Origin: Anaerolinea thermophila
Lineage (GTDB): Bacteria > Chloroflexota > Anaerolineae > Anaerolineales > UBA4823
Assembly (NCBI GenBank): GCA_020724505.1
Contig: DYGV01000027.1
Coordinates: forward strand, 1-32,907
Direction: 5' to 3'
DNA: 32,907 bases
The translations under genes were made by a program, and so were the position numbers. The notes under the pieces are model-generated. The model did no database searches, had not been told where the DNA came from, and saw only the letters and a program-made list of their open reading frames with translations. This document shows, one piece after another, positions 189-32,013 of the stretch (position 1 is the stretch's first letter; the number at the start of each line of letters is the position of its first letter).

Positions 189-1577
189 TCATACGCGCCG
201 AGTCAGGCGACGGGTTTCATAACGGAATTTTTTCGTAGCCTCTGCATCCAGATGACCGCTCAGTTCCAGCGCCTGGGCCTGCTGGAGCATTGTGTCTGCC
301 AGGGTTTTCTCGCCCATATCCAACAAGCGCGTGGCTGCCTGCCGCAATCGCAGCGTCGCCATATCCTTGCGTTCAGGGTCTGCGCTGCGAGAGGCGTCTT
401 GAGCGGTCTCTAATGCTTGAGAGCCCATTTTGTACGCTCCAACCTTTTCCACAATGTTCATCACGCGGTCATCTAACCGCGCTGTGGCCAACCGCGCCAT
501 TTGCACCACAATATCCATACGCGTATTTTGGCGGGGAGCTTCTTCCGCTGGGTCTTCCCAGGTCAACATGGCTTGTGCCAGGCGATACGCTCCTTCTTGC
601 CATGTTGGCAGAACCAACTCCATCAGCAACGCCACAGGAGCGCCGGGATCGTAATCGCCGATGAGTAGCGCATAACTGCCATCCATGTTGGGTCCGGGTT
701 CAAACTCATTCAACTCCGGCAAAACGCGATACACCCGCCGTAGTTCCACGCCGCGCGTCAGGCGCAGCTTAAGCTCCACGTTGCGATAGCTGATGCGCCT
801 GACTGCGCCCAATTCCTGGTGAAAGGCTTGCGGAATTTGATCGGGCGTTTCGATGTAATAGGCGTTCCCGCCGGTCAGGTCAGCCAAGGGGATCAGAAGA
901 TCCTCGTTGAATTCCGCCCCGATGCCCATGGTAGTCAGTTTGTAGCCTTGCTGACGCGCTCGATCCGCCCATTCGTAACACTCCTTTACTTTCAGAGTGT
1001 GACCATCGGTGAGCAGGATCATTCGCGCGGCATGGCGTTGATTGCCTCGCTTTTGAAGCTCGGCGAACCCCAACTCCAGACCTTCTGCCATGTGCGTTTC
1101 GTCTCCCAGGCGCAAATGTTCCAGCTCACGAGCCGCTTGGCGCAGGCGCTCGCGCTCCCGACCGGAGATGGAAGGGATCATTGTATGTGCCCAGCCTGCA
1201 AACGCCACCAACGAGAAATAGTCCGCCGGCTGTAAATATTCGCTGGCTTCTTCTAAAGCGGCGGCTACATAATCAATGCGCCGCGGAAGGTTCGCCATCC
1301 ACTCACCTGTCGGAGAATCGATCTGGTACGCCGGCACACCGTCCGTTAGCACTTCGCGAACCCGCCCATTCTTCGCTAGATCGGCAAACTGCTGATCGGT
1401 AACCAGACGGATGCGCATGGATTCGCTGGCGTCTATCACGAAAGCCAGGTTGCCGGGCAACGTCTCCGCCCCATCGCCGCCGCTGATTTCTGCCAATAAA
1501 TACACCAGGCGCGGTCCTTTCTGAAGCGGCACCACGCTGGAAGAGAGAGAACAATTCAAAGCCAAAGGCATTGCCAT
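189..1577 (-). CDS. VWA domain-containing protein
   Basis: 462 aa ORF; MIDAS motif FVIDASESM, downstream GDETHMAEGL and ILLTDGHT; C-terminus paralogous to the 10136-11404 product. Confidence 0.9.
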   Translation of the reverse strand: MAMPLALNCSLSSSVVPLQKGPRLVYLLAEISGGDGAETLPGNLAFVIDASESMRIRLVTDQQFADLAKNGRVREVLTDGVPAYQIDSPTGEWMANLPRRIDYVAAALEEASEYLQPADYFSLVAFAGWAHTMIPSISGRERERLRQAARELEHLRLGDETHMAEGLELGFAELQKRGNQRHAARMILLTDGHTLKVKECYEWADRARQQGYKLTTMGIGAEFNEDLLIPLADLTGGNAYYIETPDQIPQAFHQELGAVRRISYRNVELKLRLTRGVELRRVYRVLPELNEFEPGPNMDGSYALLIGDYDPGAPVALLMELVLPTWQEGAYRLAQAMLTWEDPAEEAPRQNTRMDIVVQMARLATARLDDRVMNIVEKVGAYKMGSQALETAQDASRSADPERKDMATLRLRQAATRLLDMGEKTLADTMLQQAQALELSGHLDAEATKKFRYETRRLTRRV

Positions 1578-1638
1578 ACAATACTGACCTTTTCTACTAC
1601 CATTAATTTAATAAGACGCCCGCGCCACGCGCGGGGTT

Positions 1639-2559
1639 TCAGCCGCTCTCTGTGCTCAGGGCGTTGATGACGCCTTGAACGCCCGATTGGGCTTCCAATT
1701 CCAATGCCCAGCGCAACCCCTGACCGTAAATATCCTGACGGGAGAGCATCCGCTCTTGCCCGCGGGTATAACCATAGTTGCCAATCACCCGATAGGCAAC
1801 CCATTCGGCAAATCCTTCGTGGATGCGCTCGTCGCGTAGCAAGGGATAGTTTTCAGCCTGCCAGGCGTGCGCATATTCGTGCGCCGCAATCTGTAAAAAG
1901 AGCAAACGCGGCAAGCCAGTTTGGATATAGATCCCCCGACGTATTCCACGGCGGGCGTAAAGCCCCAGCGTGTTTTCCGCCTCCAATGGCAAAGCCGACG
2001 CAGGAGAGGGATGCCCTTGCATCACGGCGCTGGTCTGTCGGCGGATCACCTCTCGCAACTGATTTCGATCCACCAGCGCCACGCCGGTGGGGATGTTGAG
2101 GCGTAGCCCCAAGAGTTGATCCACGACCTGCTGCATCTCAGAATACAACGCCGCAGCCGCAGCCGGGTCATAAATGGCAGTGGAATGACAGTGGGCGCAG
2201 ATCACCCTACCATCCGAAAGCTGCCAGTATTCATGCGTCAGCGGGGCGTTGCACACATCGCAGCGGGGGCGCGTCTGGTAACACTCCTGGCAATATGGCC
2301 CGAGGTCATCAAACTGGTAGTACTTGTTTTTAACGGGGCGGCCGCACGCCAGACAAAAACGCAGGGATTGGCTGCAGGTGGAACAAACGCCGTGCGGTAG
2401 GGCGCTTGCCATTGGAATGCCACACTGACTGCAACGCGGTTTATTCTGTGAACAATCCAGGCAGAGGCGCATAGATAATCCCGGCGGCCACGCTTTATGG
2501 TGGAACGATCGGCCTCGCCCTACAATTTGCTGACCGCATAACTGACAATAAGCAGTCAA
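1639..2559 (-). CDS. DA1-like LIM/zinc-finger metallopeptidase (HExxH)
   Basis: Cys-rich CxxC repeats, then PRCDVCNAPLTHEYWQLSDGRVICAHCHSTAIYD...; IYIQTGLPRLLFLQIAAHEYAHAW...HEGFAEWVAYRV matches the DA1 C-terminal peptidase signature as I recall it. Start revised to TTG at 2559 preceded by AAGGAG; the ORF-track start at 2706 overlaps the upstream gene. Confidence 0.8.
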   Translation of the reverse strand: MTAYCQLCGQQIVGRGRSFHHKAWPPGLSMRLCLDCSQNKPRCSQCGIPMASALPHGVCSTCSQSLRFCLACGRPVKNKYYQFDDLGPYCQECYQTRPRCDVCNAPLTHEYWQLSDGRVICAHCHSTAIYDPAAAAALYSEMQQVVDQLLGLRLNIPTGVALVDRNQLREVIRRQTSAVMQGHPSPASALPLEAENTLGLYARRGIRRGIYIQTGLPRLLFLQIAAHEYAHAWQAENYPLLRDERIHEGFAEWVAYRVIGNYGYTRGQERMLSRQDIYGQGLRWALELEAQSGVQGVINALSTESG

Positions 2560-2627
2560 TTGAACTCCTTGGACATTCTTTCGGTCTTCGCTGCCAAAGC
2601 GACCAAAAACCAGGGCATCCACCGCGC

Positions 2628-5501
2628 TTACTCTGCCTTCTTGCGCGCCTGGACAATGACCGTGGCGACAAACCACAACATGCCGTGGATGATCAACGCC
2701 CGCCACATGGCCAGGATATGCTCAGGGGTGTGTTGATAATCCAGGGAAAGATCTGTGTCGGCTTTTGAACACATGGGTTTATTCACCACCGCGCCGGTGT
2801 TCTCGTCGAACGTTTCCACGCCAACGCAAGACCAGCTTTCGTTGTTCAATTGTTTCATGTCAACCGTTGATCCTAAGGCATCGGTCGTCCAATACGAGAT
2901 GGTTGTGGCGGAAGCCACTTTGCTATCAATGGGGAAGAGCGTGCCGCCCAGGATGATCTGTACAAAGAGCTGCACCAGGATCGCATATAGCACTACATCG
3001 GTGTTTGGCACAATCGCCGACACGAACAGGCCGAAGGTGATACTTGCCAGGACAGCCAGATACAGCGTGATAAACATCTCAAACACCCCGGCATCCTTGA
3101 AGATGGCGCCGGGCAGGTCTGTGTCCACTCGTAAGCTGATGATAAATAACACGCTGGCAACCTGAATGAAGGCGAATATGCCCAGGACGATGACTTTTGA
3201 GAGGACATAGGCGATCGCGCTCAGGTTCACCGCTCGTTCACGGCGATAAATTGCTCGCTCCTTGACGATTTCATAAGCGGCGATAAATGTGCCGCCTTGG
3301 GTGAGCGCCAAAGCCAACATGGTCACCAGGGTTTGGGCGTTCTCCACCGGAGTGTAATTTTTCTCGGTGTAATCCTCTAATTTGCCGCGCGAGCTGACAG
3401 GTTTTTTCTCCCATTCCTTGATCAAGACGTCCACTTCTTTTTCCAGCTCCACGCGGATTTGATCGGCGGTACCCGGTCGTCCGGTAAGGTCTTGCTTTTC
3501 GCTCACCGACATGAACAGAAAGCCGATCAGCGGCATCATCAGCAGCAAGATGAACAACGTGCGCCAGTCGAAACGGATCAGGTCGAACTGACGCCGAGCC
3601 AGAATGAAGGTCTGTCGCAGAAATGAATCGCGCGAGCGACGCAGCGGTGGGGGAGCAGCGGCTGCCAGAGCTGCCTGTCCTTTGCCGGCCAAGCGGCTTT
3701 GCCGGTCGGCGACGAACTTTTTGAATTGCTGCGAGCGTTTATAATGCTCCGCCCATAACACGCCAGCCGTTGTTTTGGTCGGCGTGCCAGGTTTGGGGTT
3801 GTAATAAGGCTGCAACTCCGGCGGAGGCGGTTTTCCCTTTGCACCATCCACTTCTTGAGAAAGCTTCAGGTAGATGTCTGAAAAATCACGCACATTAAAG
3901 AATTGCAGCGCCTCGCTTGGCGGCCCATAATAGGCGAGGTGTCCTTGAGATAGAAACGCCACATGATCGCATTGTTCGATGTTCGCCGTGGCGTGGGTCA
4001 CCAATACTACGGTACGACCCTCATCCGCCAAGCGGTTCAGGTCATACATCATCTTCTTTTCCAAACCGGGGTCCAGACCGGAGGTCGGCTCATCCAGGAA
4101 AAACAGCGTGGGTCTGGCAAGCAATTCAACAGCGATGCTCACCCGCTTGCGCTGACCGCCGCTGAGCACGCGCACAGGTTTATCGGCGTGTTCGGTCATA
4201 TCCACTGCCCGCAGCGCCTCCTGAATGCGTGCCTCGATTTCCTTCGGGCGCGCGTCCGGCAGGCGCAATTTGGCAGCATACCACAGCGCAACCCTCACCG
4301 GCAACGTGCGGTGGATGATGTCATCCTGCGGCACGTAACCCATCTGGGTGCGATATAACTCCAGCTTAGAATACAACGGCTCGGCGTCTAACAACATCTG
4401 ACCATGGTTGGCGGGTTCATAACCATTCATCGCTTTCATCAGGGTGCTTTTGCCTGCACCGCTGCCGCCCACCAGGGCGACAAACTCGCCTGGGTTGATG
4501 GTCAATGAAACATCGCGCAGGATCATTTTATGGTTAGCCACTTCCCGCCCCAGCTTAATGGCATCTATGCGATGACCCAGGCGCATAGACTGCGCCAGGC
4601 TTTGATTCTGCGCATCGTACACCAGCTTAAACGGCCCAATCTGAATTTCATCGCCGCTGTTCAATGGGGATTGGCGGATGCGTTGGCCGTTGACAAACGT
4701 CCCGTTGGTGCTATCTAAATCCTTTATAAACAGACTGGAATTGTGTTTAAAGATTTGAGCATGGTGGAAAGAGACCGTCGGATGATTCAAAGGCAAATAT
4801 GCGTTGGGGTCTCGGCCAATGGTGATGGAGGTCAGGTTGGAGAGATCCAGCTTACCCAGAGAAAGCGTGCGCAAGGCTTCGCCGGCGGCGCTTTCCAAGC
4901 TGAGCGTCACCCAGTTGCCGGTCAGGTCTCCAATGCGGATAACATCGCCAAAGTTGATCGGCTGCGGCGAGTTAGGCGGGATGCGGTGACCATTGAGTTG
5001 CGTCCCATTGGTGCTTTTTAAGTCCGTTACGGTCATCGCTCCGCTGGAGACGAAGAGACTGAGATGATGGCTGGAGACTGCCGGATGATTAATCACCACA
5101 TCATTATCTGGCGCGCGCCCGACGCGCAGCGTGGGTTCGGTGATCGGGTAACGTTGGGAATTGCCGCCCATCCAGCGCACGATGAGTGTATTCGTGCCAG
5201 GCATATCGCTGAGCAAAGTCGTTGCGGGGGGTGCCCCCGGTGCGCTGACCGCCCCGGCAAACGCAGCCTGCTGCGCCGGCGCGGCGGCAACCGGCGTCGG
5301 GGCTGCGGCAAGCTGCTGGCCGATGTCATATCCGCAATGGGGGCAAAAACGGGCTGTGGAGCGAATGGGCGTCTGGCAGCGTGGGCATACATTGCCCGCA
5401 TCTGGTTTGGCGGCTGACGCCAGCGGCTTGCCGCAATTGGCGCAAAAGCGCGCTTGGGCGGCGTTTTGCGATCCGCAGTAAGGACATTGGGTCGAATTCA
5501 T
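2628..5501 (-). CDS. Zinc-ribbon / tandem FHA / ABC transporter fusion (ATPase + ABC2-type permease)
   Basis: 957 aa; two N-terminal zinc ribbons (CPYCGSQNAAQARFCANCGKPL, CPRCQTPIRSTARFCPHCG); two FHA domains (RVGRAPDNDVVINHPAVSSHH, STNGT; IGRDPNAYLPLNHPTVSFHH, STNGT); Walker A GGSGAGKST, signature LSGGQRKR, Walker B LFFLDEP; C-terminal hydrophobic TM segments. Confidence 0.93.
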   Translation of the reverse strand: MNSTQCPYCGSQNAAQARFCANCGKPLASAAKPDAGNVCPRCQTPIRSTARFCPHCGYDIGQQLAAAPTPVAAAPAQQAAFAGAVSAPGAPPATTLLSDMPGTNTLIVRWMGGNSQRYPITEPTLRVGRAPDNDVVINHPAVSSHHLSLFVSSGAMTVTDLKSTNGTQLNGHRIPPNSPQPINFGDVIRIGDLTGNWVTLSLESAAGEALRTLSLGKLDLSNLTSITIGRDPNAYLPLNHPTVSFHHAQIFKHNSSLFIKDLDSTNGTFVNGQRIRQSPLNSGDEIQIGPFKLVYDAQNQSLAQSMRLGHRIDAIKLGREVANHKMILRDVSLTINPGEFVALVGGSGAGKSTLMKAMNGYEPANHGQMLLDAEPLYSKLELYRTQMGYVPQDDIIHRTLPVRVALWYAAKLRLPDARPKEIEARIQEALRAVDMTEHADKPVRVLSGGQRKRVSIAVELLARPTLFFLDEPTSGLDPGLEKKMMYDLNRLADEGRTVVLVTHATANIEQCDHVAFLSQGHLAYYGPPSEALQFFNVRDFSDIYLKLSQEVDGAKGKPPPPELQPYYNPKPGTPTKTTAGVLWAEHYKRSQQFKKFVADRQSRLAGKGQAALAAAAPPPLRRSRDSFLRQTFILARRQFDLIRFDWRTLFILLLMMPLIGFLFMSVSEKQDLTGRPGTADQIRVELEKEVDVLIKEWEKKPVSSRGKLEDYTEKNYTPVENAQTLVTMLALALTQGGTFIAAYEIVKERAIYRRERAVNLSAIAYVLSKVIVLGIFAFIQVASVLFIISLRVDTDLPGAIFKDAGVFEMFITLYLAVLASITFGLFVSAIVPNTDVVLYAILVQLFVQIILGGTLFPIDSKVASATTISYWTTDALGSTVDMKQLNNESWSCVGVETFDENTGAVVNKPMCSKADTDLSLDYQHTPEHILAMWRALIIHGMLWFVATVIVQARKKAE

Positions 5502-5590
5502 TGGATTCTCCTTCGGCGACTATGAAGCCATGCTAAGAAGCCCGCATCAATATTCTACACCAAACCTTGCTGAAGCGGCGCTAATCGAAC

Positions 5591-5604
5591 GCGGAAATTT
5601 CCGC
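5591..5604. promoter_or_regulatory. Perfect 14-bp palindrome GCGGAAATTTCCGC between kinase and FHA-ABC genes
   Basis: Direct reading; lies in the largest intergenic gap (~150 bp) within the signalling island. Confidence 0.3.
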
Positions 5605-5650
5605 AACGGTTGATCCTATTTCATCTACCTGCGATCGTTAGCTAATACCG

Positions 5651-7672
5651 CTAATACGCGCAACGAAAACCGACTGTATCTGAGCGCAAGTCGGGGTAGT
5701 TCCATAAGCGAAACGCAGCGCGCATCGCCGGCGCCAGGTTATACCAGGAGCCGCCGCGCAACACCCGAAATTCTCCTTCCGTTGGCCCAAGCGGATTAAT
5801 AGAGGGAGACAGGGTGTAGTAGTTTTCACGATACCAGTCTTGCACCCATTCGGCCACATTGCCAGCCATATCCAGCACCCCGAATGGGCTGGATCCGGCC
5901 GGGTAGCTGCCCACGCGGCTGGTATCTCCAACTTGACGGTTGAAATTCGCCAGGCGCGCCGTAGGCGCGGCTTCGCCCCAGGGGTAGGCGCGCCCGTCCG
6001 TCCCGCGGGCGGCTTTTTCCCATTCGGCTTCGCTGGGCAGCCGCCGATTTGCCCATCTACAATAATCATTGGCGTCGTTCCACGACACGTAAACAACCGG
6101 ATAATCGGCAAATGCCGGATTGTCATAATATGACGGGCGGGAGCTGGATTGAACCTTCTCCGGCCGACCGCAAGCGCCTGCGGCGACGCAACGGGCATAC
6201 ATGGCGTTGGTTACCTCGACGCGGTCTATCCAATAAGCGCGCAGATACACCGCGTGGAGCGGTTTCTCCTCCTTGCCCGCCGCGGCATCTGCATCGGGCG
6301 AGCCCATCCAAAATTCTCCTTCGGGGACCAAGACCAGTTCCATGCCATCTTCGGCGGCGATCTGGATGGCAACGGGCGTAGGAGGCGTAGCCAAAACTTC
6401 AGCAGCAGGCGTTCTCGTCGTAACGCCGGAGGCTTGAGGGATCAGCAACTTTTGCCCGGCGTAGATCACCCCACAATTCGGCGGCAGGTCATTCAAAGCG
6501 GCGATTTCTGCAAGAGAGACAGAGAAGGCTTGCGCGATCTCCGAGCAGGTATCTCCGCTTTGCACAGTATATTCCAGCAGGTCGAGAGTCGGAATGGGCG
6601 ACGCGGCGACCTCGACGGTGGGCGAGCTGCTATTCGTCGCGGTCCAGGTGGGAAGGGAGGTTTCTTCAACCATCGCTGGGGGAAAGATCGGTCGCGCGGA
6701 TCGTTCGCGCCCGCCGCGCAGCAATGCAATCAATAAGATGACAACGAAGAAAGCCAGACCCACCACGAGAGCAATCACCGCCCAAGACGCGCCGGGCGTT
6801 TGCTGCGTCGCAAGCGCCGGCGCAGCCGGCATTGAGGTTGAGGCGTGCAATGACGGGGCTTGCGGCTGACGCACCACCGGTTGCAGCGCAGCTTTGAAAT
6901 CCGCCGCGCTTTGGAAGCGCTGTGAGGGGTCCATTTGCAAAGCACGCATCAATGCCGAAGAGGCGCGTAAGCTCAGCGACGGGTTGAGTTGCCGCGGCGG
7001 GATAAGCGGGTCGCGCGTCACGCGCTGAATGCTTTCCGGCGGTTCTATGCCGGTGAGGATGGTGTAGAGGGTAGCGCCTAACGCATAAATATCTGTACGG
7101 GCGTCGGTAGCACCCTTGCCATACTGTTCATAAGGCGAAAATCCTGGGGTCACTGCCTGAGCGCCCTGGGTCGTCTTCAAATGGGGGTCGTAAACCTTGG
7201 CGATGCCAAAATCCACCAGAACGGCGGTCCCGTCGGGAGTGATTTTGATGTTGGCAGGCTTGATGTCGCGGTGGATGATGGGCGGCTTTTGAGAATGCAA
7301 ATGGGTCAACGCGTCGCAGATCTGGCAGATCCAGAACACGGCTTTATCTTCTGGCAGCGGAGCGCCGCGATCTTCGAGCATTTCTTGCAAATCCTGCCCC
7401 TCGATAAAATCCATCACCAAATACTGCTTCACGCCGTCAATGAAATAATCTGTCACGCGGGGCAAATTAGGGTGTGAAAGATTTGCCAAAATTTTTGCCT
7501 CGCGCAAGAACTGACGCTGCGCCTCTGGAGCAGCGTCCAGGTTTTCCTTGAGGGCGCAGGGGCGACCCAGCGCGGTATCCCAAACGCGGTATAACGCACC
7601 AAAGCCGCCCTGGCCGAGCAGCTTAACGATGCGATAGCGATTATGTAAAATCGCTCCAGGCTGATAAGTCAT
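5651..7672 (-). CDS. Ser/Thr protein kinase with TM segment, LysM and C-terminal FGE-sulfatase (SUMF1-like) domain
   Basis: 673 aa; kinase motifs LGQGGFGALY, HRDIKPANIKI, DFGIAK; TM AVIALVVGLAFFVVILLIALL; LysM YTVQSGDTCSEIAQAFSVSLAEIAALN; FGE-like MVLVPEGEFWMGS-type start, DRVEVTNAMYARC, RLPSEAEWEKAARG, RVLRGGSWYN, GFRCAY. Confidence 0.93.
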   Translation of the reverse strand: MTYQPGAILHNRYRIVKLLGQGGFGALYRVWDTALGRPCALKENLDAAPEAQRQFLREAKILANLSHPNLPRVTDYFIDGVKQYLVMDFIEGQDLQEMLEDRGAPLPEDKAVFWICQICDALTHLHSQKPPIIHRDIKPANIKITPDGTAVLVDFGIAKVYDPHLKTTQGAQAVTPGFSPYEQYGKGATDARTDIYALGATLYTILTGIEPPESIQRVTRDPLIPPRQLNPSLSLRASSALMRALQMDPSQRFQSAADFKAALQPVVRQPQAPSLHASTSMPAAPALATQQTPGASWAVIALVVGLAFFVVILLIALLRGGRERSARPIFPPAMVEETSLPTWTATNSSSPTVEVAASPIPTLDLLEYTVQSGDTCSEIAQAFSVSLAEIAALNDLPPNCGVIYAGQKLLIPQASGVTTRTPAAEVLATPPTPVAIQIAAEDGMELVLVPEGEFWMGSPDADAAAGKEEKPLHAVYLRAYWIDRVEVTNAMYARCVAAGACGRPEKVQSSSRPSYYDNPAFADYPVVYVSWNDANDYCRWANRRLPSEAEWEKAARGTDGRAYPWGEAAPTARLANFNRQVGDTSRVGSYPAGSSPFGVLDMAGNVAEWVQDWYRENYYTLSPSINPLGPTEGEFRVLRGGSWYNLAPAMRAAFRLWNYPDLRSDTVGFRCAY

Positions 7673-7693
7673 GCTATTCGGAAAACAGTAGAT

Positions 7694-8542
7694 TTATGTT
7701 ATTCTAACGACAATCACGCCAATGTTGTCTTCCCCGCCGGCGGCGTTGGCTGCATCCACCAGATCGCGGCAAGCCTGCGCAGCCGATTTCGCCTCCAGCG
7801 TTAAACGGGCGATCTTATGATCGTCCTGCACCATTTCCCATAACCCATCTGAACAGAAAATTAATGTATCACCCTGATTAACCATTTGCACAAAGGTATC
7901 CACCTGCACATCCCGTTTATGCCCCAGAGAACGGTAGATCAAGTTTCGCTGCGGGTGGGTGAAGACCTCGCCAGGTTGAATTTGACCGGCTGCCACCAGT
8001 GTCGCCACCAATGAATGATCCTGTGTAATCTGTTGCAGTTGTCCATTGCGCAACAAATACGTCCGGCTGTCGCCAACATTGGCGATCACCGCCCGGTCGC
8101 CCAAAACCAACCCCATGGTGATGGTCGTGCCGGCGTCGCCGGCTTTATCAGGCTTTTGTTTTGTATATTGATACACCACCAGGTTCGCCTTTTGCACCGC
8201 CTGGCGCACTCGGTTTTCCAATTTACGTAAGCCGGATAAACGGGTGGATTCGCTGCCACGCAACGCCGCGTCCAGTTCGGTTTTCGAAAGCTGCACCGTT
8301 GCACGCGGATCCGGCGGACAGAACAGGTCGTTTAACTCTCGTTTCACGGTTTCGACTGCCCAATGGCTGGCAACCTCCCCGCCCAAATAGCCGCCGATGC
8401 CGTCGCAAACGATAAACAAGCCTACCGCCTCGCCTTCCGAGGCTGCATAAATTTGCGACCATACGCGATCTTCATTCATTGATCTCTGGCGTCCGGCGTC
8501 CGTCAGCGCAGCAGCCTCGAGTTTGAGCATAGCGGCCTCCAT
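7694..8542 (-). CDS. PP2C-family protein phosphatase
   Basis: 282 aa; CDGIGGYLGGEVAS, ANVGDSRTYLLRNG, IFCSDGLWEMV, GGEDNIGVIVV. Start may be the internal Met at 8530. Confidence 0.93.
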   Translation of the reverse strand: MEAAMLKLEAAALTDAGRQRSMNEDRVWSQIYAASEGEAVGLFIVCDGIGGYLGGEVASHWAVETVKRELNDLFCPPDPRATVQLSKTELDAALRGSESTRLSGLRKLENRVRQAVQKANLVVYQYTKQKPDKAGDAGTTITMGLVLGDRAVIANVGDSRTYLLRNGQLQQITQDHSLVATLVAAGQIQPGEVFTHPQRNLIYRSLGHKRDVQVDTFVQMVNQGDTLIFCSDGLWEMVQDDHKIARLTLEAKSAAQACRDLVDAANAAGGEDNIGVIVVRIT

Positions 8543-8559
8543 GAAAGGGTATGGAATGG

Positions 8560-9438
8560 TTAAGTTTCACGATATTCCAGGGCTAAAAGTCCCAGGCGGA
8601 TTTCATCTCCATTTCGGAGTGGGTAACGTTGCCCGGGTTCTAAGCGCCGTCGGTTGAGAAAAGTGAAATTTGTGCTGTTGAGATCTTCCAGATAAACGCC
8701 ATCTGCCTCAACAATCAGGCGAGCATGTCGTCGCGACACGCCATGCGCATCGCCGCCGTGGGGAGCCAGGTCTATGTCTGGGTAGATGCTGCGCGCGGCG
8801 TCGGAGCGGCCAATAATGAGGTCGGTTTTACCTTTTGGCAACGGGAGTAGGACTCCCGATTCGCGCAACAACAAGATGGCTTCAACCTGCGGCGCGGCGA
8901 CCGGAAACGGAGGCGTAGAAGGGATAGGTGGCGTCGGCGGTTCAGGAATGTCCTGCGAGGGCTTCATTAGAGGAGGCATCTGCGCGGCAGGAACAGGAGG
9001 AGGGTCCTCTATTATGGAGGCGCTATTCGGCGATATCTGGGCTGCCCCGCTAAGTTTGATACCGCAATTCTGGCAAAAAATGTCCGTCGGCGAGGCAGGG
9101 AAGCCGCATTCCGGGCAAACTCCGCTTGGCGCTGGAGGTGCAACTGGTGGCGGCTGAGGCGCCGGATCGCCTGTGATTGGGCGGGGCGCGGGCGGCGGGG
9201 CGCTCGCCACCGGCGCAAGTTGCACCCCGCAGTTCTGGCAAAACATTTCCCCAGGGATGTTCTGAAAGCCGCAAGCCGAACAGACGCTTGCTTGCGCGCC
9301 CGCCGTTGCGGGAGCGGAAGGCGGTCTGCGCCGGACGGCAGATGAGGCGGGCGGCTGGTTTTGAAGCACTTGCCCGCAATTATCGCAAAAGTTTGCCATG
9401 TCGCTGACAAACGCATGGCATTTAGGACAGGTTCGCAT
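8560..9438 (-). CDS. FHA-domain protein with three zinc ribbons
   Basis: 292 aa; three CxxC...FCxNCG ribbons; FHA motif IIGRSDAARSIYPDIDL...GVSRRHARLIV...LNSTNFTFLN. Confidence 0.88.
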   Translation of the reverse strand: MRTCPKCHAFVSDMANFCDNCGQVLQNQPPASSAVRRRPPSAPATAGAQASVCSACGFQNIPGEMFCQNCGVQLAPVASAPPPAPRPITGDPAPQPPPVAPPAPSGVCPECGFPASPTDIFCQNCGIKLSGAAQISPNSASIIEDPPPVPAAQMPPLMKPSQDIPEPPTPPIPSTPPFPVAAPQVEAILLLRESGVLLPLPKGKTDLIIGRSDAARSIYPDIDLAPHGGDAHGVSRRHARLIVEADGVYLEDLNSTNFTFLNRRRLEPGQRYPLRNGDEIRLGLLALEYRET

Positions 9439-9441
9439 AGG

Positions 9442-10092
9442 TCAATTCGAGTAATAAATAAGCGCCATTTTGCCCAGTCGAAGCTCATCGCCCGATTTTA
9501 ACGGCTGCGGTTGGCGGGCGGCGATGCGCTGGCGGTTCACTGCTGTACCGTTCACGCTGTCCAGATCTTCAATATACACCTGCCCTTCTTTGACCATCAA
9601 CTGGGCGTGTCTGCGTCCCACGCCAGCCTCATGTCCGCCGTGAGGATCCAGATCAATATCCGGGAACACACCGCTCACCGGGTCTTCCCGCCCGATGATA
9701 ATCACTTGCTTGCCGGGCGGAATAGGCAAAGTCACCTGACTATCCAGGATCACAAGCCGTCCAACGACTGTGCTCTCCACGGGCGCTGCAGGGGCAGAGG
9801 GTTGCGGCGTCGGGACCGCTGGTTTCACCCCCGATGGCGCGGGGGCAGGCGGCGCGGCTGCCTGCGCCAATTGCGAGCCACAGTTTTCACAAAATGCAGA
9901 GCCGGCGATGTTGGCGTGCTGGCAATTAGGGCAGATAATTTCATTGGCTTCAGCAGATGGGATCATGTAGGTAGGGGGGATCTGCTGTCCGGCGGTCGGC
10001 GCTACTGTGCGCAGGTCATAACCGCAATGATCGCAAAACACCGCTCCTGGCGGCGCGGGGGTGTTACAACTGGGACAAGTAATTACAGACAT
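9442..10092 (-). CDS. FHA-domain protein with two zinc ribbons
   Basis: 216 aa; CPSCNTPAPPGAVFCDHCG and CPNCQHANIAGSAFCENCG; FHA IIGREDPVSGVFPDIDL...GVGRRHAQLMV...DSVNGTAVN. Confidence 0.88.
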   Translation of the reverse strand: MSVITCPSCNTPAPPGAVFCDHCGYDLRTVAPTAGQQIPPTYMIPSAEANEIICPNCQHANIAGSAFCENCGSQLAQAAAPPAPAPSGVKPAVPTPQPSAPAAPVESTVVGRLVILDSQVTLPIPPGKQVIIIGREDPVSGVFPDIDLDPHGGHEAGVGRRHAQLMVKEGQVYIEDLDSVNGTAVNRQRIAARQPQPLKSGDELRLGKMALIYYSN

Positions 10093-10135
10093 ATAATCCT
10101 CCTCAGGAGTATCAGATGGTGATCCAGAGAAACCC

Positions 10136-11404
10136 TCACTCGATCTCGGTCAACCGTTTGGTGGCATAACGCATCTTTTGCGCCGCAGCCGGGTCCAGGT
10201 GACCTTCTTGTTCGATCAGATTTGCCTGTTGACGCGCCTGGCGCGCCAATTCCACTTCGCCGAGTTCCAACAGGCGCGTGGCGGCTGCCCGCAGACGCTG
10301 TGTCGCACGAGAAGCATTGCCCGCTGCGGCGTCGTCCAATGCCTGGGTTTGTAACCGATGGGCGACCACGCGCTCGATTAGATTCATGATCCGCTCATCC
10401 ACCTGACCGGTCTGCGTCGCGTCATGGGTGAAATCCAGCGTTACATCTATAGCAACACGCTGATCTTTTAAGCCAGAGCCGGGAACATCATAAGTGACAT
10501 CCGCCTGGAGCAGACGGAAAGTCCCTGCCGATCGCGGCGGAAAGAGCAGATCGGCAAGCAGCGCCTGCCCCACCCCTTGACGAATTTCGCCGAGGAAGAT
10601 TTGAATATCATTCGTCCCCACCGCATGATGATCCAGCCGGCTGATCAGGGGCGATGTTCGCCAGACAGAGCGCGGCGTTACTCCCGAAACCATACGTATG
10701 GTGAGGTTTGCGTTGGCAACCGCAGCGCCTTGGATTGCGCAAAGCGTCTTTTGAAACGCGGCGCTGACCTGATGCGGCGATTCAACCGGCATCCATTCGC
10801 CGCCAGAACGCTGGGCTAACTCCTCTAAAAGTCGCGGATCCCAATTGCTATCTGCACCCACCCCCAACCCAAACGCCTGGATGGAGATACCCGCCATGCG
10901 GCATTGATCTGCAAGGTCGCGGCATTCTTGTTGATCTTCCCAGGTCTGCCCATCTGTGAGCAGTATCATGCTGCTCACTCGCTCCGGGCTGCGGCCGCGC
11001 AGTATTTCTTGCAACCCCAGGCGCATACCGGTGGACATGTGTGTGCCGCCGCGCTCTTCGATGGCGTTAATTTTGCGCTGAATGGCCTCTCGATCTATAA
11101 CCGGCGCGCAAGGTACAACCAGTTCCGCCGGTTGGGCATCGTCGAAGATCACCACGGAGAGCAGATCTTGCGCCCCCAGTTGATCTACCACCAACCGGGC
11201 GGCCTGTTTCATGGCGTTCAGTTTTTCGCCGCTCATGGATCCGCTGCGATCTAAAACCAGACAAACGTTCACTGGCTGGTTTTGCCCCGCCGGCGCGTCG
11301 CCAGTCGGCATGATCTCCAGCAGGATGTAGGCTTGCTGGGCTACATCCATTGCAGGATATACCCTGCGGTGCGGCGTGGCAGTAAGCATCAACTCGCCAG
11401 ACAT
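10136..11404 (-). CDS. VWA domain-containing protein
   Basis: 422 aa; MIDAS LVLDRSGSMSGEK, GGTHMSTGM, ILLTDGQT. Confidence 0.93.
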   Translation of the reverse strand: MSGELMLTATPHRRVYPAMDVAQQAYILLEIMPTGDAPAGQNQPVNVCLVLDRSGSMSGEKLNAMKQAARLVVDQLGAQDLLSVVIFDDAQPAELVVPCAPVIDREAIQRKINAIEERGGTHMSTGMRLGLQEILRGRSPERVSSMILLTDGQTWEDQQECRDLADQCRMAGISIQAFGLGVGADSNWDPRLLEELAQRSGGEWMPVESPHQVSAAFQKTLCAIQGAAVANANLTIRMVSGVTPRSVWRTSPLISRLDHHAVGTNDIQIFLGEIRQGVGQALLADLLFPPRSAGTFRLLQADVTYDVPGSGLKDQRVAIDVTLDFTHDATQTGQVDERIMNLIERVVAHRLQTQALDDAAAGNASRATQRLRAAATRLLELGEVELARQARQQANLIEQEGHLDPAAAQKMRYATKRLTEIE

Positions 11405-11405
11405 A

Positions 11406-13196
11406 TTAGGCTTCTACTATCTTCACGACCACTACGGAGATATTATCATCGCCGCCGGCGGCGTTGGCCGCCTCAATCAACGCGTCGCAGGCGGCTTGAG
11501 GCGAAGGGGTATTCATGACAATCTGATAAATCGCCTCGTCTTCCACCATGCCGCTCAAGCCATCGGAGCATAGCAGGAGAGAATCACCCACCTTGAGAGT
11601 GTGCGTCGTCACTTCGACATCAATCTTGGGTTTATCGCCGATAGTGCGATAGATCACATTGCGTTGAGGGTGATGACGGGCTTCTTCACGGGTGATCTGG
11701 TTGGTGGCAATCAATCGTTCCACAAGAGAATGATCGGTGGTCAGGCGTTGAATGCCTTGCGCATTGATCAGATAGGCGCGGCTATCTCCAACATGAGCAA
11801 TGTACGCTTTATTGCCTTCCAAAAGCGCCGATACCAAAGTGGAGCCCATATCGGTGCCGGCTGAGCGGCGTAATTTAAACACTTCAGCGTTGGCTTCCTC
11901 GACCGCTTCTCGCAGCCATTTTTGCCGATCCAATGCTGCGTTTTTCGTGAACTGGGCCGGCATGAGTTCTTTGAATGTTTTTTGGGATATGGTATTAATA
12001 ATCGCGCCGCTGGCGATTTCTCCCGCGGCGTGCCCCCCCATGCCGTCGGCGACGACATAAACCCCCACAGGCTGGCTGACGGACTGGTGAATGCGGTTGA
12101 TCTCCACGGTCAACAGGCTATCTTCGTTGAGGTTACGCACCATTCCCACGTGGGTTCGCCGACCCATGTAATAATCCAGTGTTTTGGCAGAGGTCATTTC
12201 CTCCAGGGCTTGGCTGAGCAATTCCGCCAGTGCGCCGGCGGATGCAACGCCAGGGGAGGTGTAAACGCGTTCGAACGCCTGGCTGATCGCCGGCGCCAGA
12301 TTCGGGTCGTGTTCCAGGCGCTCTTTGCCGGTGAGCCAATAGAAGATCAACCGCGCTAGCGCTTCGGCGTCCGGTTTGCGTTCGGTCACATAGCCTTCCG
12401 GGTGATGAGTGCATGTAGTGAAATTTGCCCAAACTGCGCGTCCGTTAACCACGCCCAGTGCGTTGACGTCCACATGGCCGTTAAAACTCACGCCATTATC
12501 GTGCAAATAATCCAGCCCACGCGCCAGGCCAATGCCCCAGTTAAGCGCCTGCATAGAATCGGGGACGCCTTCCAGCGCTCCCACCCTGGGAACGACTACG
12601 CAATGGCGGGGTTGCCCTGCCAGCCGCTCGACAAATGCAGCCAGTGGAGCGCGCACCGCGCCGTGTGAAAGACCCTTTGCCGCCAGGCGAACAATGTTAT
12701 CCGGGATGGGGGTACGCGCCTCGATCAGCGCCAAGTCTTTGCCGCCCTTTTCTAGAACTGTACCACAATCGGTGCAAAATTTTTCCGGCGCGGCGTTGCG
12801 CGGTAAAAAAATCGCGCCGCAAGAGGTATTGGGACAGACGCGAATCTGCAAATCTTCGGGGACGTCAATTTGGTGGACAAGATAACGATGCTGGCGATCA
12901 TCGCTGAAGATCACATTCTCGTAGAGAAAATTATCCCCGAAAACTGCCCCTGGCGGGCGGCGGTCAAAAGCGTTGGTGGGCGTCAGAGGCCGCGTGTCTG
13001 TTCTGGGGTTTTGCGCCAAGCGGCGCGTGGTTTGGGAGTTTTGCGCAGATGCTGATAAATTTGCTTTATCGAGTCGCATAGTTTCTAAATCCAGGGGTCG
13101 AGTGACCGCCGACGAGGTGGGCAGTCGGGTGGCGCAATTCTTGCAAAATTTTGCCCCCGAACGATTTTCAGCCCGGCAGTTTGGGCAAATGACCAT
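11406..13196 (-). CDS. Zinc-ribbon / pseudokinase-like / PP2C phosphatase fusion
   Basis: 596 aa; N-terminal CPNCRAENRSGAKFCKNCATRL; second ribbon CPNTSCGAIFLPRNAAPEKFCTDCGTVL; middle GIGLARGLDYLHDNGVSFNGHVDVNALGVVNGRAVWANF resembles a kinase C-lobe lacking HRD and DFG; C-terminal PP2C motifs ADGMGGHAAGEIAS, HVGDSRAYLIN, CSDGLSGMV, GGDDNISVVVV. Confidence 0.9.
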   Translation of the reverse strand: MVICPNCRAENRSGAKFCKNCATRLPTSSAVTRPLDLETMRLDKANLSASAQNSQTTRRLAQNPRTDTRPLTPTNAFDRRPPGAVFGDNFLYENVIFSDDRQHRYLVHQIDVPEDLQIRVCPNTSCGAIFLPRNAAPEKFCTDCGTVLEKGGKDLALIEARTPIPDNIVRLAAKGLSHGAVRAPLAAFVERLAGQPRHCVVVPRVGALEGVPDSMQALNWGIGLARGLDYLHDNGVSFNGHVDVNALGVVNGRAVWANFTTCTHHPEGYVTERKPDAEALARLIFYWLTGKERLEHDPNLAPAISQAFERVYTSPGVASAGALAELLSQALEEMTSAKTLDYYMGRRTHVGMVRNLNEDSLLTVEINRIHQSVSQPVGVYVVADGMGGHAAGEIASGAIINTISQKTFKELMPAQFTKNAALDRQKWLREAVEEANAEVFKLRRSAGTDMGSTLVSALLEGNKAYIAHVGDSRAYLINAQGIQRLTTDHSLVERLIATNQITREEARHHPQRNVIYRTIGDKPKIDVEVTTHTLKVGDSLLLCSDGLSGMVEDEAIYQIVMNTPSPQAACDALIEAANAAGGDDNISVVVVKIVEA

Positions 13197-13221
13197 GAAC
13201 TGGCTCCTTTGTTGAGCAATA

Positions 13222-13638
13222 TCATCCGGGATGGATGTATCCAGTATCGCGAAAGATCAGGTTAGATTTGCCCAGGCCAATCCGAACCCCGTCGCGTAGA
13301 ACATTTTTCCGTGTGAGCTGGTCTTCAACTGTAACGCCGTTTAACGAATCCAGATCCACGATGCAAATTTCCTTCACGTTCTCATCGTAATAGATCAACG
13401 CATGGTTCGCGGATACGGTATCGTCGGCGAGGACCAAATCGTTTGGTTCAGCGCGGCCAATTGAGATTGGCAGCGAAGCGAAAGTTCTGGTCTCACCGTT
13501 TTCGAGGATCAATTTGAGTCCAAACTCCGAGTTGTTCACAGCGCGCCTCGCAGAATCCCCAGTTTGCTTACTTGTTTGCGATTTATCCCCAGATGGTTCC
13601 CCCGGTTTTCGACCGAAGAGCTTGCCCAATCGAGCCAT
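13222..13638 (-). CDS. Small FHA-domain protein
   Basis: 138 aa; ISIGRAEPNDLVLADDTVSANHALIYY...DLDSLNGVTVE. Confidence 0.85.
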   Translation of the reverse strand: MARLGKLFGRKPGEPSGDKSQTSKQTGDSARRAVNNSEFGLKLILENGETRTFASLPISIGRAEPNDLVLADDTVSANHALIYYDENVKEICIVDLDSLNGVTVEDQLTRKNVLRDGVRIGLGKSNLIFRDTGYIHPG

Positions 13639-16177: not shown

Positions 16178-17854
16178 TTATCCGATGATCTCGACCACGC
16201 CGGTGTTGCCGTTGACGCGAATGCGCATGCCGGTTTTGATCTTTTCCGTAGCCACAGAGGTGCCAACCACCGCCGGGATGCCAAACTCACGCGAAACCAC
16301 CGCCGGGTGCGCCAGCACGCCGCCGGCGTCTGTAACCAGACCCTTAATCTTGGTAAAGACCACCACCCAGGCAGGGTTGGTCATCTTGCACACCATAATC
16401 TCGCCTTTCTTGACCTCGTCAAACTGTGCTGGCGATTGCACGAAGCGCGCCACGCCTTCCACCACACCTGGTGAGGCCGCCAATCCTGTGATCACATCTG
16501 CCGGCTCTGCAGAGCGCTCAGCGGTCTTGGTGAATTTCTCCGGGAAACCCCACAGACCTTTATAAGGTTCATCGTATAGCGACCATTTGGTCACAGTGCC
16601 AACCCAATCTCTTGGGCGGATACCGCTGGCCGCCAGATTTTCGTCGCGCCGCTTTTGCACCAACGCCTTGGCGTCAAACGCATTCGGCACTGCCGCGATG
16701 TGGCGCAGCTCGTCATAGGTCAGGTAGAAGATATCCTCGGCGTCGAAAAGCACGCCGCCCTCGACCAGCTTGCGGCCAATCGCCAGCAGAACCAGGCGCA
16801 TGCGTGCATAGGTGCCCTGGTCAAAATAGAAGTGATGATCCGGTGTCAGCGGTGCCATCTTGAGCGCCATGTCCAGCGCTTCCTGGAGACGTTTCTTGTC
16901 TTCCTCTTTCTTGACGCGCGAGAACATCTCCTGAATGGCTGCATTTTGGTTATCCTTCACCTTTTGGATGTCGGCGTACACATCATAGCCCGATTCAAGA
17001 TAACCCTTCACCGCCTCGATGATCGGGGCGTTGTTCTCCACCCACAACGGGAAGATATATTCGTGGGTGTACATGGCTTTGTAACCGAATTCCTTCGCCC
17101 ACTCTTTCACTTTGCTCAGGAATTCTTTGCCCTGCTCGCTCTTCCCCAGGGCAGCCATGATTTCGGAGGCTGTCTCGCCTTTGAACGCCTGGCTTAACAG
17201 GGCGTCTGCCTTCACCATGTCGCGCAACATGCACAGCCCTTTGATCGAGTCCCAGTTGCGATCATCTACGGAGACTTCAATCTTACCGGTGAGCACCGGA
17301 TCCGCCTCGCCAGTGACTTCTTTGAAGATGGTTTCAAAGTTGAGGAACGAAGCAAATTGCGCCATGTTCAACAGCCAGTGGATGCGGAAGTGGCGCTCCT
17401 GAATATCCAGGGCATCCTCGAAAAGCACCATCAGTTCCGGCAGCGACGCGGTTTCGTAAGGGAAAGTATCCAGGAATTCAAAGTTGCGCAGCACCTCTGG
17501 CACCAGCCGCTCTTTCCACCAGGTCAGGAAATTGTTTGCATAAACAGGGAGAACCATGCCAAAGTATGGTCCCAGTCGGGCGATCTCCTCGTCGGTCTGG
17601 GGTACGATGGCGCTATACACGTACTGATTGATTTTTTTGGCAATCCAATCATTGCCAAACGGCAAGCCGAAACGTCTGTACATATATCGGCAGGTCAGCC
17701 ACCAACCGCCAATATCGAAATACATGGGCGAAATGGGTTGTGGGCAATGCAGATCATCGTAAAACCAGTGCAGGCTTTTTTCTTGCTCATCTTTCCATTC
17801 GATGGGGAAAGATTCATCGCCAAAGAAAGTACCTAAAACGGTCATATCAGGCAT
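16178..17854 (-). CDS. PEP-utilizing enzyme, mobile (swivelling phospho-His) domain protein; C-terminal half of a split PEP-synthase-like dikinase
   Basis: C-terminal GLVTDAGGVLAHPAVVSREFGIPAVVGTSVATEKIKTGMRIRVNGNTGVVEI. Start at 17854 preceded by GAGGAG. Confidence 0.87.
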   Translation of the reverse strand: MPDMTVLGTFFGDESFPIEWKDEQEKSLHWFYDDLHCPQPISPMYFDIGGWWLTCRYMYRRFGLPFGNDWIAKKINQYVYSAIVPQTDEEIARLGPYFGMVLPVYANNFLTWWKERLVPEVLRNFEFLDTFPYETASLPELMVLFEDALDIQERHFRIHWLLNMAQFASFLNFETIFKEVTGEADPVLTGKIEVSVDDRNWDSIKGLCMLRDMVKADALLSQAFKGETASEIMAALGKSEQGKEFLSKVKEWAKEFGYKAMYTHEYIFPLWVENNAPIIEAVKGYLESGYDVYADIQKVKDNQNAAIQEMFSRVKKEEDKKRLQEALDMALKMAPLTPDHHFYFDQGTYARMRLVLLAIGRKLVEGGVLFDAEDIFYLTYDELRHIAAVPNAFDAKALVQKRRDENLAASGIRPRDWVGTVTKWSLYDEPYKGLWGFPEKFTKTAERSAEPADVITGLAASPGVVEGVARFVQSPAQFDEVKKGEIMVCKMTNPAWVVVFTKIKGLVTDAGGVLAHPAVVSREFGIPAVVGTSVATEKIKTGMRIRVNGNTGVVEIIG

Positions 17855-17985
17855 GGCAGTTTTCTCCTCTCTGGAATTTAATTTCATGACGGTATCTAGA
17901 TGCGAGGGTGGTCATCGCTCCCAATCAGTAATTAGTCAGGTCCTAATGCTTTGCCAGAGGTGCGCCTCCTTTCGTTACTTCTTTG

Positions 17986-18876
17986 CTAATCCAGCAATTT
18001 TTCAACTTCATCTAGCAAGAGCTGAGGTGTGCGCGCCCGGATCAGGTGGTAAGGTTTCTGGATGAACTCCTGAATGAAAGCGGCGCGTTTGTAACGTAAC
18101 TCTTCGCTGTCTAATATAGGCATGGGTAGTCCCGGCGCTAACAGGGTGTTCAGTCCCATATAGTTGATCAGGCAGTGGAAGGTTTGGTAAGCCTTCTCAA
18201 ACTCACCCAGGGCTGTCACGCTCACATCGAAATGACCGTCAATGTCCGGCACAATCACCCGATCAATCTTTGTGGGTTGCGTATGGAACACCTGCAGATC
18301 TGGCAGAACGCCGCCGAACAATTTTTGCACGCCGATGTTTTGCGATGGCTTGTCGGCGCGCTCGGTGCCTTTGGCGCGTTTCACCAGGAATACGTCCCGG
18401 CTGCCGGCGATCACCAGGCCTGTGGCGCGTTCGATCACCGTCGTCTCGGTGGCAATAAACGCCCCGCCGCGGGCGCGGGCTTCGATTTGCGCCATCGTTT
18501 TTCCGTTGTTGCTCTCTCCGCCCATGAAGAGGATGCTGACGCCGCGATAATGAACCGCAGAAGAGTGGAACAGATAAACATCTTTTTCTTCCATGCGGCG
18601 GGCAAGCAGAGTCACCAGGATTTTTTGCAGTTCACCTTCAGCCCAATCGCCCGTCAGGCGCAACTGGTCATCCTGAAAACGGATTGTCTTCTGCGCCGCG
18701 TCGCGATCCCAATATAGATCCACCTTCTCGGTGGTAATCTGGTGCGTGCGTTGCACTTTGCCCAGACGATAATCCAGGAAGGTGGTATCTTCCAGGATCC
18801 ACTCCATCGGTTCAGCGGTCTTGACATCTATACGGATCAGGGCTGGCCCTGAAGTAATTTGTTCCCTATATTCCAC
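17986..18876 (-). CDS. HPr kinase/phosphorylase-like P-loop protein
   Basis: 296 aa; LFHSSAVHYRGVSILFMGGESNNGKTMAQIEARARGGAFIATETTVI resembles an HPrK-type P-loop and surroundings. Confidence 0.55.
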   Translation of the reverse strand: MEYREQITSGPALIRIDVKTAEPMEWILEDTTFLDYRLGKVQRTHQITTEKVDLYWDRDAAQKTIRFQDDQLRLTGDWAEGELQKILVTLLARRMEEKDVYLFHSSAVHYRGVSILFMGGESNNGKTMAQIEARARGGAFIATETTVIERATGLVIAGSRDVFLVKRAKGTERADKPSQNIGVQKLFGGVLPDLQVFHTQPTKIDRVIVPDIDGHFDVSVTALGEFEKAYQTFHCLINYMGLNTLLAPGLPMPILDSEELRYKRAAFIQEFIQKPYHLIRARTPQLLLDEVEKLLD

Positions 18877-18953
18877 AATCGAACTCCTGTCATCAAGGGT
18901 TTATAACCAGCGTTTTCCAAAGCATGTACTCCAAGTGGTGAAATTCTAGCGGC

Positions 18954-19928
18954 TCACAGAGTCGTCACTGGGCGGCTCTGTAAGACATAGAGCGAATTCC
19001 CTTCAATAGCCCATTCGACATCTTGCGGGCAGCCGAAATGTCTCTCAATCGAATTGCCCAGCTCGGCCAACTGAGCAATTTCTTCCGAGGTAAGCACTTG
19101 CGCTTGAGCTTTTTCGGGCGGCAGCTCCACCTCTCGCACGCCAATGCCGTTATCCTCGCGGACAATCATCACCGTCTTGCGAGAGATGAACTTGGACACC
19201 AAACTGCCATCGGTCTTGTTGACCACATAATTATCCGGGGTCACCAGGCCAGAAACCACCGCTTCGCCCAATCCCCAGGCGGCTTCGATCATCACCCGAT
19301 CTCGCCGGCGCTGCACCGGATCTGCGGTGAACATCACCCCCGATTTGTCCGGGTTCACCATGCGCTGCACCACCACTGCCATACTGGTGTCTTTTAAACT
19401 GCCTTTTTGACCGCGGTAAAAGATCGCCCGCGGATTAAAAAACGAACTCCAGCAGGCGCGCACCTGGTTCATCACGCAATCATCGCCATAAATGTTCAAA
19501 AAAGTCTCCTGCTGACCGGCGAAGCTGGCGGCTTGAGAATCCTCGGCCGCAGCGCTGGAACGCACCGCGACGATAGCCAGGTCGCCATAATCGGCACATA
19601 GCTTCTGATAAGCGCCAACAATCATGCTGCGTAGACCGTTAGAAGGCTGCTGAGCTTCGATTTTTTGCGTGATCTCCTGCGCCACGCGTTCAAGCGCGAG
19701 GTTATCTTCGACGTTTAAACCTTGCATCATGCGCTCGATTTCGCTTCCCAATTGGCTTTCGCGCAAGAATTGCTCAAATGCGCCCGTGCAGATAACGAAG
19801 CCCGGCGGGACCGGCAGGCCGGCGCGCGCCATATCGCTCAGGCTGGCGCCTTTGCCGCCAGCGATGGAAACATCTCCACGATCAATCTCGCCAAACCAGG
19901 CGATAAAAGAACCTTCAGGACATGTCAT
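18954..19928 (-). CDS. PEP/pyruvate-binding (PPDK_N, ATP-grasp) domain protein; N-terminal half of a split PEP-synthase-like dikinase
   Basis: GKGASLSDMARAGLPVPPGFVICTGAFEQFL; VAVRSSAAAEDSQAASFAGQQETFLNI; GVMFTADPV; AAWGLGEAVVSGLVTPDNYVV; CPQDVEWAIEGNSLYVLQSRPVT. Ends after this domain. Start revised to 19928 with GGAGAGG upstream. Confidence 0.92.
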   Translation of the reverse strand: MTCPEGSFIAWFGEIDRGDVSIAGGKGASLSDMARAGLPVPPGFVICTGAFEQFLRESQLGSEIERMMQGLNVEDNLALERVAQEITQKIEAQQPSNGLRSMIVGAYQKLCADYGDLAIVAVRSSAAAEDSQAASFAGQQETFLNIYGDDCVMNQVRACWSSFFNPRAIFYRGQKGSLKDTSMAVVVQRMVNPDKSGVMFTADPVQRRRDRVMIEAAWGLGEAVVSGLVTPDNYVVNKTDGSLVSKFISRKTVMIVREDNGIGVREVELPPEKAQAQVLTSEEIAQLAELGNSIERHFGCPQDVEWAIEGNSLYVLQSRPVTTL

Positions 19929-19989
19929 TGATACAGACCTCTCCAGGGGCAAACCCTCTTGGGTCTGCCCCGTAGCAACGAAATAAACA

Positions 19990-31904: not shown

Positions 31905-31995
31905 GGGAAGGTGCCAGAGAGGCCGATTGGGCTCGCCTGCTAAGTGAGTGCTGGGGCTTTAACCTCAGCCGTGGGTTCGAATCCCACCCTTCCCG
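31905..31995 (+). tRNA. tRNA-Ser (anticodon GCT)
   Basis: Acceptor GGGAAGG/CCTTCCC, anticodon arm CTCGC-CTGCTAA-GTGAG (anticodon 31939-31941), long variable arm, T-arm GTGGG-TTCGAAT-CCCAC, discriminator G; CCA not encoded. Confidence 0.95.
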
Positions 31996-32013
31996 CCTCT
32001 ATTGCTCAAGCCA

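Follow-up and report, generated by a model that had tools for sequence, protein, structure and literature searches.

A DA1-type zinc metallopeptidase co-inherited with an insert-bearing VWA protein in a kinase/FHA/PP2C/VWA island of Anaerolineae

RESULTS AND DISCUSSION

A gene at 1639..2559 on the minus strand of the window (the entire 32,907-nucleotide stretch analyzed here, from an Anaerolinea thermophila assembly) encodes a DA1-type zinc metallopeptidase of 306 aa, an assignment based on Pfam, residue alignment, AlphaFold2, and profile comparison. Its metal-site motif, its predicted fold, its conserved neighborhood in Anaerolineae, and its co-inheritance with an insert-bearing VWA protein are observed. 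This VWA protein, termed VWA1 (189..1577, minus strand; proposed as the partner from sequence, model, and co-occurrence), is the sharpest partner of DA1, beyond gene order. The explanation that we favor, with slightly more confidence than doubt, joins the DA1 peptidase, the insert VWA, and phosphorylation control similar to that of archaeal ArnAB into a single system.

The DA1 gene and its product

The DA1 gene starts with TTG at 2559, with an AAGGAG ribosome site five bases upstream, and translation of the plus strand of 1639-2559 is interrupted by stops. Peptides quoted in the initial annotation were recovered in the minus-strand translation of 2559..1639. As was also described there, the gene sits between an FHA-ABC gene and a VWA gene. 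These lie upstream (2628-5501; 68-bp gap) and downstream (189-1577; 61-bp gap), respectively, with all three genes on the minus strand. Zinc fingers occupy residues ~5 to 126 of the product and the peptidase domain residues ~132 to 305. Eight CxxC pairs lie N-terminal to the HEYAH motif (227-231), E248 is found 17 residues past H231, and Y278 follows further on; HEYAH and E248 make up the clan MA zinc site (HExxH plus a downstream Glu). Neither a signal peptide nor a membrane segment was apparent in the sequence, and the AlphaFold2 model had a mean pLDDT of 94.9. In our best explanation, the product is a DA1-family zinc metallopeptidase that resides in the cytosol and carries a LIM-like zinc-finger module at its N terminus, and it would be expected to have peptidase activity.

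Taken singly, the window protein has a marginal Pfam DA1-like (PF12315) score of 26.5 to 27.1 bits, just over the cut-off of 25 and covering positions 80 to 130 of 213; some close homologues (L053 and L033) miss that cut-off. NCBIfam and a single-sequence PDB search returned no match and no significant match, respectively, and a Foldseek search of the model against the PDB gave nothing under E = 1e-3 (best, 3cmn at 4e-3), with zincins and LIM domains as the top entries. Despite this thin stand-alone Pfam case, DA1 homology is firm by sequence comparison through bridging bacterial LIM-DA1 proteins of the same class (L007 to L011), which score 47 to 119 bits for LIM and 51 to 80 bits for DA1-like (three members scanned singly). 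A profile-profile alignment between these proteins and the window branch extends over 274 columns (E = 5.5e-30), which settles homology to LIM-DA1 proteins and, together with the Pfam score, bears out the DA1-like identity given in the initial annotation. The match is full-length and the catalytic residues are identical, but unlike the window protein, most of the bridging proteins have canonical LIM domains, and they lie outside islands of Ser/Thr kinase (STK), FHA, PP2C, and VWA genes. The LIM assignment of the same annotation stands in part: the window protein falls below the LIM cut-off of 22.9 (20.7 to 21.9 bits), while its close homologue L033 exceeds it (23.4 bits) and the bridging proteins match strongly. 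A profile termed A1, which includes the window protein, also matches PDB LIM proteins (E = 5e-4).

Homologues were drawn from class genomes and from 84,980 species genomes, the latter yielding 80 loci, mostly in Chloroflexota, with some in Omnitrophota, Acidobacteriota, Eremiobacterota, and others. A DA1-like match at E ≤ 0.01 was found for 41 of 48 homologues, and C90, C100, C103, D116, C121, H227, E228, H231, E248, and Y278 are invariant in all 48. Relatives from other phyla include DA1 domains in proteins of ~420 to 670 aa (L089, L090, L095, and L098), one of them with 12 CxxC/H pairs. The number of zinc fingers is variable, most homologues having from 4 to 12 CxxC/H pairs, as might be expected if the peptidase domain were idle or structural and DA1 served as a zinc-finger scaffold of island complexes. 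That HExxH, E248, and Y278 are unchanged in 48 proteins whose remainder has diverged to ~30% identity makes such a role improbable.

DA1-like sequences in Roseiflexus have been noted earlier, with reference to Burroughs 2011 (PMC5322733), so the family itself is not new. The context of DA1 within a kinase/FHA/PP2C/VWA island appears to be new relative to the open papers checked. In plant DA1/DAR proteins (PF12315), as in the window protein, zinc fingers are followed by a C-terminal HExxH peptidase with a metal-binding Glu 17 residues on. The plant metal site is HEMMHX15EE (PMC5322733); the Glu of the window protein aligns with the second Glu of this motif, and the first Glu of the EE pair is absent. 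The window protein further differs from plant DA1/DAR in its lack of ubiquitin-interacting motifs (UIMs), its fingers below the LIM cut-off, and its link to a phospho-signaling island.

Ubiquitin and DA1

Plant DA1 is activated by ubiquitylation (PMC5322733), and the initial annotation drew a parallel to this mode of activation. One cluster in the window's genome would fit a bacterial ubiquitin-activated peptidase of the Arabidopsis kind: on another contig (L187; G000:C23, 632-5746), genes for a prokaryotic RING protein, a Ubl-E2 fusion (UQ_con, 40 bits; YukD-like N terminus), a second Ubl-like frame, a JAB peptidase, and FHA and VWA membrane proteins stand in a row. However, the window DA1 has no UIM repeats, its N terminus being 4 residues ahead of the first finger Cys, and an E2 was detected in only one of 10 DA1 genomes searched (the window's own) and in none of the nine others. 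When the Ubl-E2 protein was used as a query, relatives that lack DA1 (G027 and G089) gave the strong matches, and the other genomes carrying window-type DA1 together with the insert VWA did not. Ubiquitin control as a general mode of bacterial DA1 is not supported, and we regard ubiquitin activation of this protein as very improbable. The cluster on C23, with near relatives in G027 and G089, is an observation in its own right, being a bacterial ubiquitin-like cluster with phospho-reader neighbors.

Organization of the island

Ten codirectional minus-strand genes, separated by gaps of 1 to 149 bp, span positions 189 to 13638, with transcription running from high to low coordinate. The run begins with a small FHA protein (13222..13638), followed by a protein with a zinc ribbon, a degenerate kinase-like region, and PP2C (11406..13196), both identified by domain scan and motifs. 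Domain scans then place VWA2, a VWA1 homologue without the insert (10136..11404), and two proteins with an ArnA-like arrangement, one with two zinc ribbons and FHA (9442..10092) and one with three zinc ribbons and FHA (8560..9438). A PP2C phosphatase (7694..8542) and a Ser/Thr kinase with LysM and an FGE-sulfatase-like domain (5651..7672; HRDIKPAN and DFG intact) come next, both by domain scan and motifs. Between these and the DA1 and VWA1 genes, a domain scan identified a protein comprising a double zinc ribbon, two FHA domains, an ABC ATPase, and an ABC-2 membrane domain (2628..5501). Core motifs are intact in the island kinase, PP2C, and several FHA domains.

Several other features of the region were noted. 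The kinase-like region of 11406-13196 is without recognizable catalytic motifs, and its counterpart in L034 is a 906-aa STK-PP2C fusion. Outside the island, two halves of a PPDK/PEP-synthase-like enzyme flank an HPr-kinase-like P-loop gene (17986-18876) at 16178-19952, all recognized by eye, and a tRNA-Ser (GCT) lies at 31905-31997, past a region with a sugar ABC transporter and a DeoR-type regulator.

The island was also compared with other known systems. In PADLOC, matches were limited to generic models for kinase, ABC, and PP2C proteins, and assignment to a known defense system was dropped for this reason. The TerY-P triad consists of vWA, PP2C, and kinase proteins, the same three domain types as are found in the island; the TerY-P component models in PADLOC gave no match. 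A MoxR-type AAA+ protein, which vWA-MoxR/VMAP ternary systems require along with a VMAP partner, was not found among the 10 island proteins scanned. The island FHA-ABC protein presumably resembles the Rv1747-type transporter, in which two FHA domains are fused to an ABC transporter, but it has additional N-terminal zinc ribbons and DA1 as a neighbor.

Conservation of the neighborhood

Among 20 Anaerolineae-type DA1 loci, all four of STK, FHA, PP2C, and VWA were present in 9, three in 5, two in 3, and one in 3, several of the low-count loci being short contigs. Thus, at least three were present in 14 of 20 loci, and every locus had at least one; more than one was found at none of the 60 other DA1 loci. 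DA1 keeps its place in the island in six families of the class, among which the genes have been rearranged into several different orders. In the phylogenetic tree, the Chloroflexota sequences of the window DA1 branch form one clade, the island label needs four changes, and the window DA1 falls within an all-island clade of 10 (support, 100/98). In Chloroflexia, DA1 is short, has two fingers, and is not located in such islands; the DA1 proteins of Ktedonobacteria and other phyla are also outside them. The link to the island, which had been proposed from gene order, thus extends to Anaerolineae neighborhoods and to co-occurrence across genomes (see below), but not to Chloroflexia, Ktedonobacteria, or other phyla.

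Kinase and FHA genes are abundant in Chloroflexota, and two genomes with DA1 (G071 and G129) contain several islands, which could suggest an artefact of kinase- and FHA-rich genomes. Such an artefact is already counter to the data, and we give it almost no credence: STK, FHA, PP2C, and VWA genes were carried by none of 20 other stretches (274 kb) of the window's genome, and such islands do not include the five representatives of the multi-LIM DA1 branch in the class. Finger number was considered as a marker of island membership and rejected because short forms (L053, L070, L076, and L094) also occur in islands. Genes flanking the Chloroflexia DA1 (a UvrD/AddA-like helicase and a glycosyltransferase) were recurrent but offered no functional theme. 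At one further locus (L012/L185; G071:C51), Ser/Thr kinase genes in an extended tandem array surround DA1, and several of these kinases are fused to FGE-sulfatase-like domains.

Co-inheritance of DA1 and the insert VWA

Profile searches of 199 class genomes recovered window-type DA1 in six and the insert VWA in seven, with an overlap of six. The insert VWA was therefore present in 6/6 genomes with window-type DA1, compared to 1/193 others (Fisher P = 9e-11, before correction for kinship; the six genomes represent six families). In the exception, G169, the insert VWA is at a contig end, exactly where DA1 would begin. The pairing holds at a distance as well, as the two genes are ~25 kb apart in G071 and on different contigs in G129. 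The FHA-ABC protein was found in 16 of the 199 genomes, including all six with window-type DA1, and the insert VWA was absent from the five class genomes with multi-LIM DA1.

In a phylum survey of 301 genomes, the insert VWA was found in 27, all of which have DA1; the search cut-off was strict (1e-95), and diverged copies may therefore have been missed. Both genome surveys are species samples that include many incomplete genomes. The Chloroflexia DA1 genomes tested have one insert VWA each, mostly at a different place, and co-occurrence inside Chloroflexia may reflect no more than common descent. The argument for pairing rests on the six scattered Anaerolineae-type families. DA1 is found in Ktedonobacteria and other phyla in the absence of the insert VWA and is therefore able to work without it.

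A proposed ArnB-like partner and a possible phospho-switch

In 16/16 insert-type VWA sequences, exactly 24 residues separate the MIDAS DxSxSM from a conserved DG(V/I); none of the remaining VWAs in these islands has this insert. The C-terminal tail of VWA1 is RYETRRLT, and tails of the form (R/T)Y-x-(T/S)-R, with Thr or Ser within a basic motif, occur in 16/16. The AlphaFold2 model of VWA1 (pLDDT, 89.8) comprises vWA, a beta-sandwich, and a C-terminal four-helix bundle; the best Foldseek matches were 4fx5, archaeal ArnAB 8s05 (TMt, 0.78), and the ArnB paralogue 5a8j. VWA1 is thus predicted to have the architecture of archaeal ArnB.

In the ArnAB system, ArnB is bound loosely by the zinc finger of a zinc-finger-FHA protein; binding by FHA becomes tight once a kinase has acted on the ArnB helical bundle, and a phosphatase counteracts this (PMC6509490, PMC12852372). 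The island likewise has a zinc-finger-FHA protein (ArnA-like by domain order), a vWA/beta-sandwich/helical-bundle protein, a kinase, and a phosphatase. It differs in that PP2C replaces PP2A, VWA and FHA proteins are present in several copies, and an FHA-ABC transporter, the MIDAS-loop insert, and a peptidase are added; no motility link is known. Since the island has all ArnAB part types with intact motifs, as well as the Thr/Ser tail of VWA1, we infer that phosphorylation sets VWA-FHA assembly and that the insert VWA is the target of DA1 or the route by which DA1 acts.

In the proposed mechanism, the insert VWA would be an ArnB-like scaffold and either the adaptor or the substrate of DA1. The island Ser/Thr kinase would phosphorylate the VWA1 helical bundle and Thr-containing tail, PP2C would remove the phosphate, and the ArnA-like zinc-ribbon-FHA proteins would read the phosphorylation of VWA1. 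The phosphorylation state could then set the timing of a limited cut by DA1, through which the complex would be altered or reset. Co-inheritance with the insert VWA suggests that the DA1 protease may be the output of a phospho-switch, in line with the protease output proposed in the initial annotation; DA1 would be in physical contact with VWA1 and would come under phosphorylation control. A narrower version is possible but doubtful: a bacterial ArnAB-like (Sec23/24-like vWA) switch would have DA1 as its dedicated proteolytic output, with DA1 docking on the invariant-length MIDAS-loop insert of the VWA partner.

It is also conceivable, if somewhat unlikely, that DA1 and the insert VWA are a peptidase-adaptor pair with a housekeeping task of their own, without phospho-control and only incidentally placed in the island in Anaerolineae. 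Chloroflexia retain both proteins without the FHA island, and in L056 and L063 a single contig carries both of them but no STK, FHA, or PP2C, as such a pair would predict. However, the retention of the island placement across six families and several gene orders, together with the Thr or Ser kept in all 16 VWA1 tails, argues against this reading.

Significance

Plant DA1 restrains cell proliferation and organ size via a latent peptidase that is turned on by ubiquitylation. With a single co-inherited partner, bacterial DA1 allows activation and substrate choice to be tested in a small system of two proteins. DA1 is also a concrete candidate effector for bacterial kinase/PP2C/FHA/VWA islands, and the finding connects such islands to the structurally solved ArnAB switch. 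If the narrower version above, with docking on the MIDAS-loop insert, is true, DA1-type regulated proteolysis under kinase control would have existed in bacteria, separate from ubiquitin.
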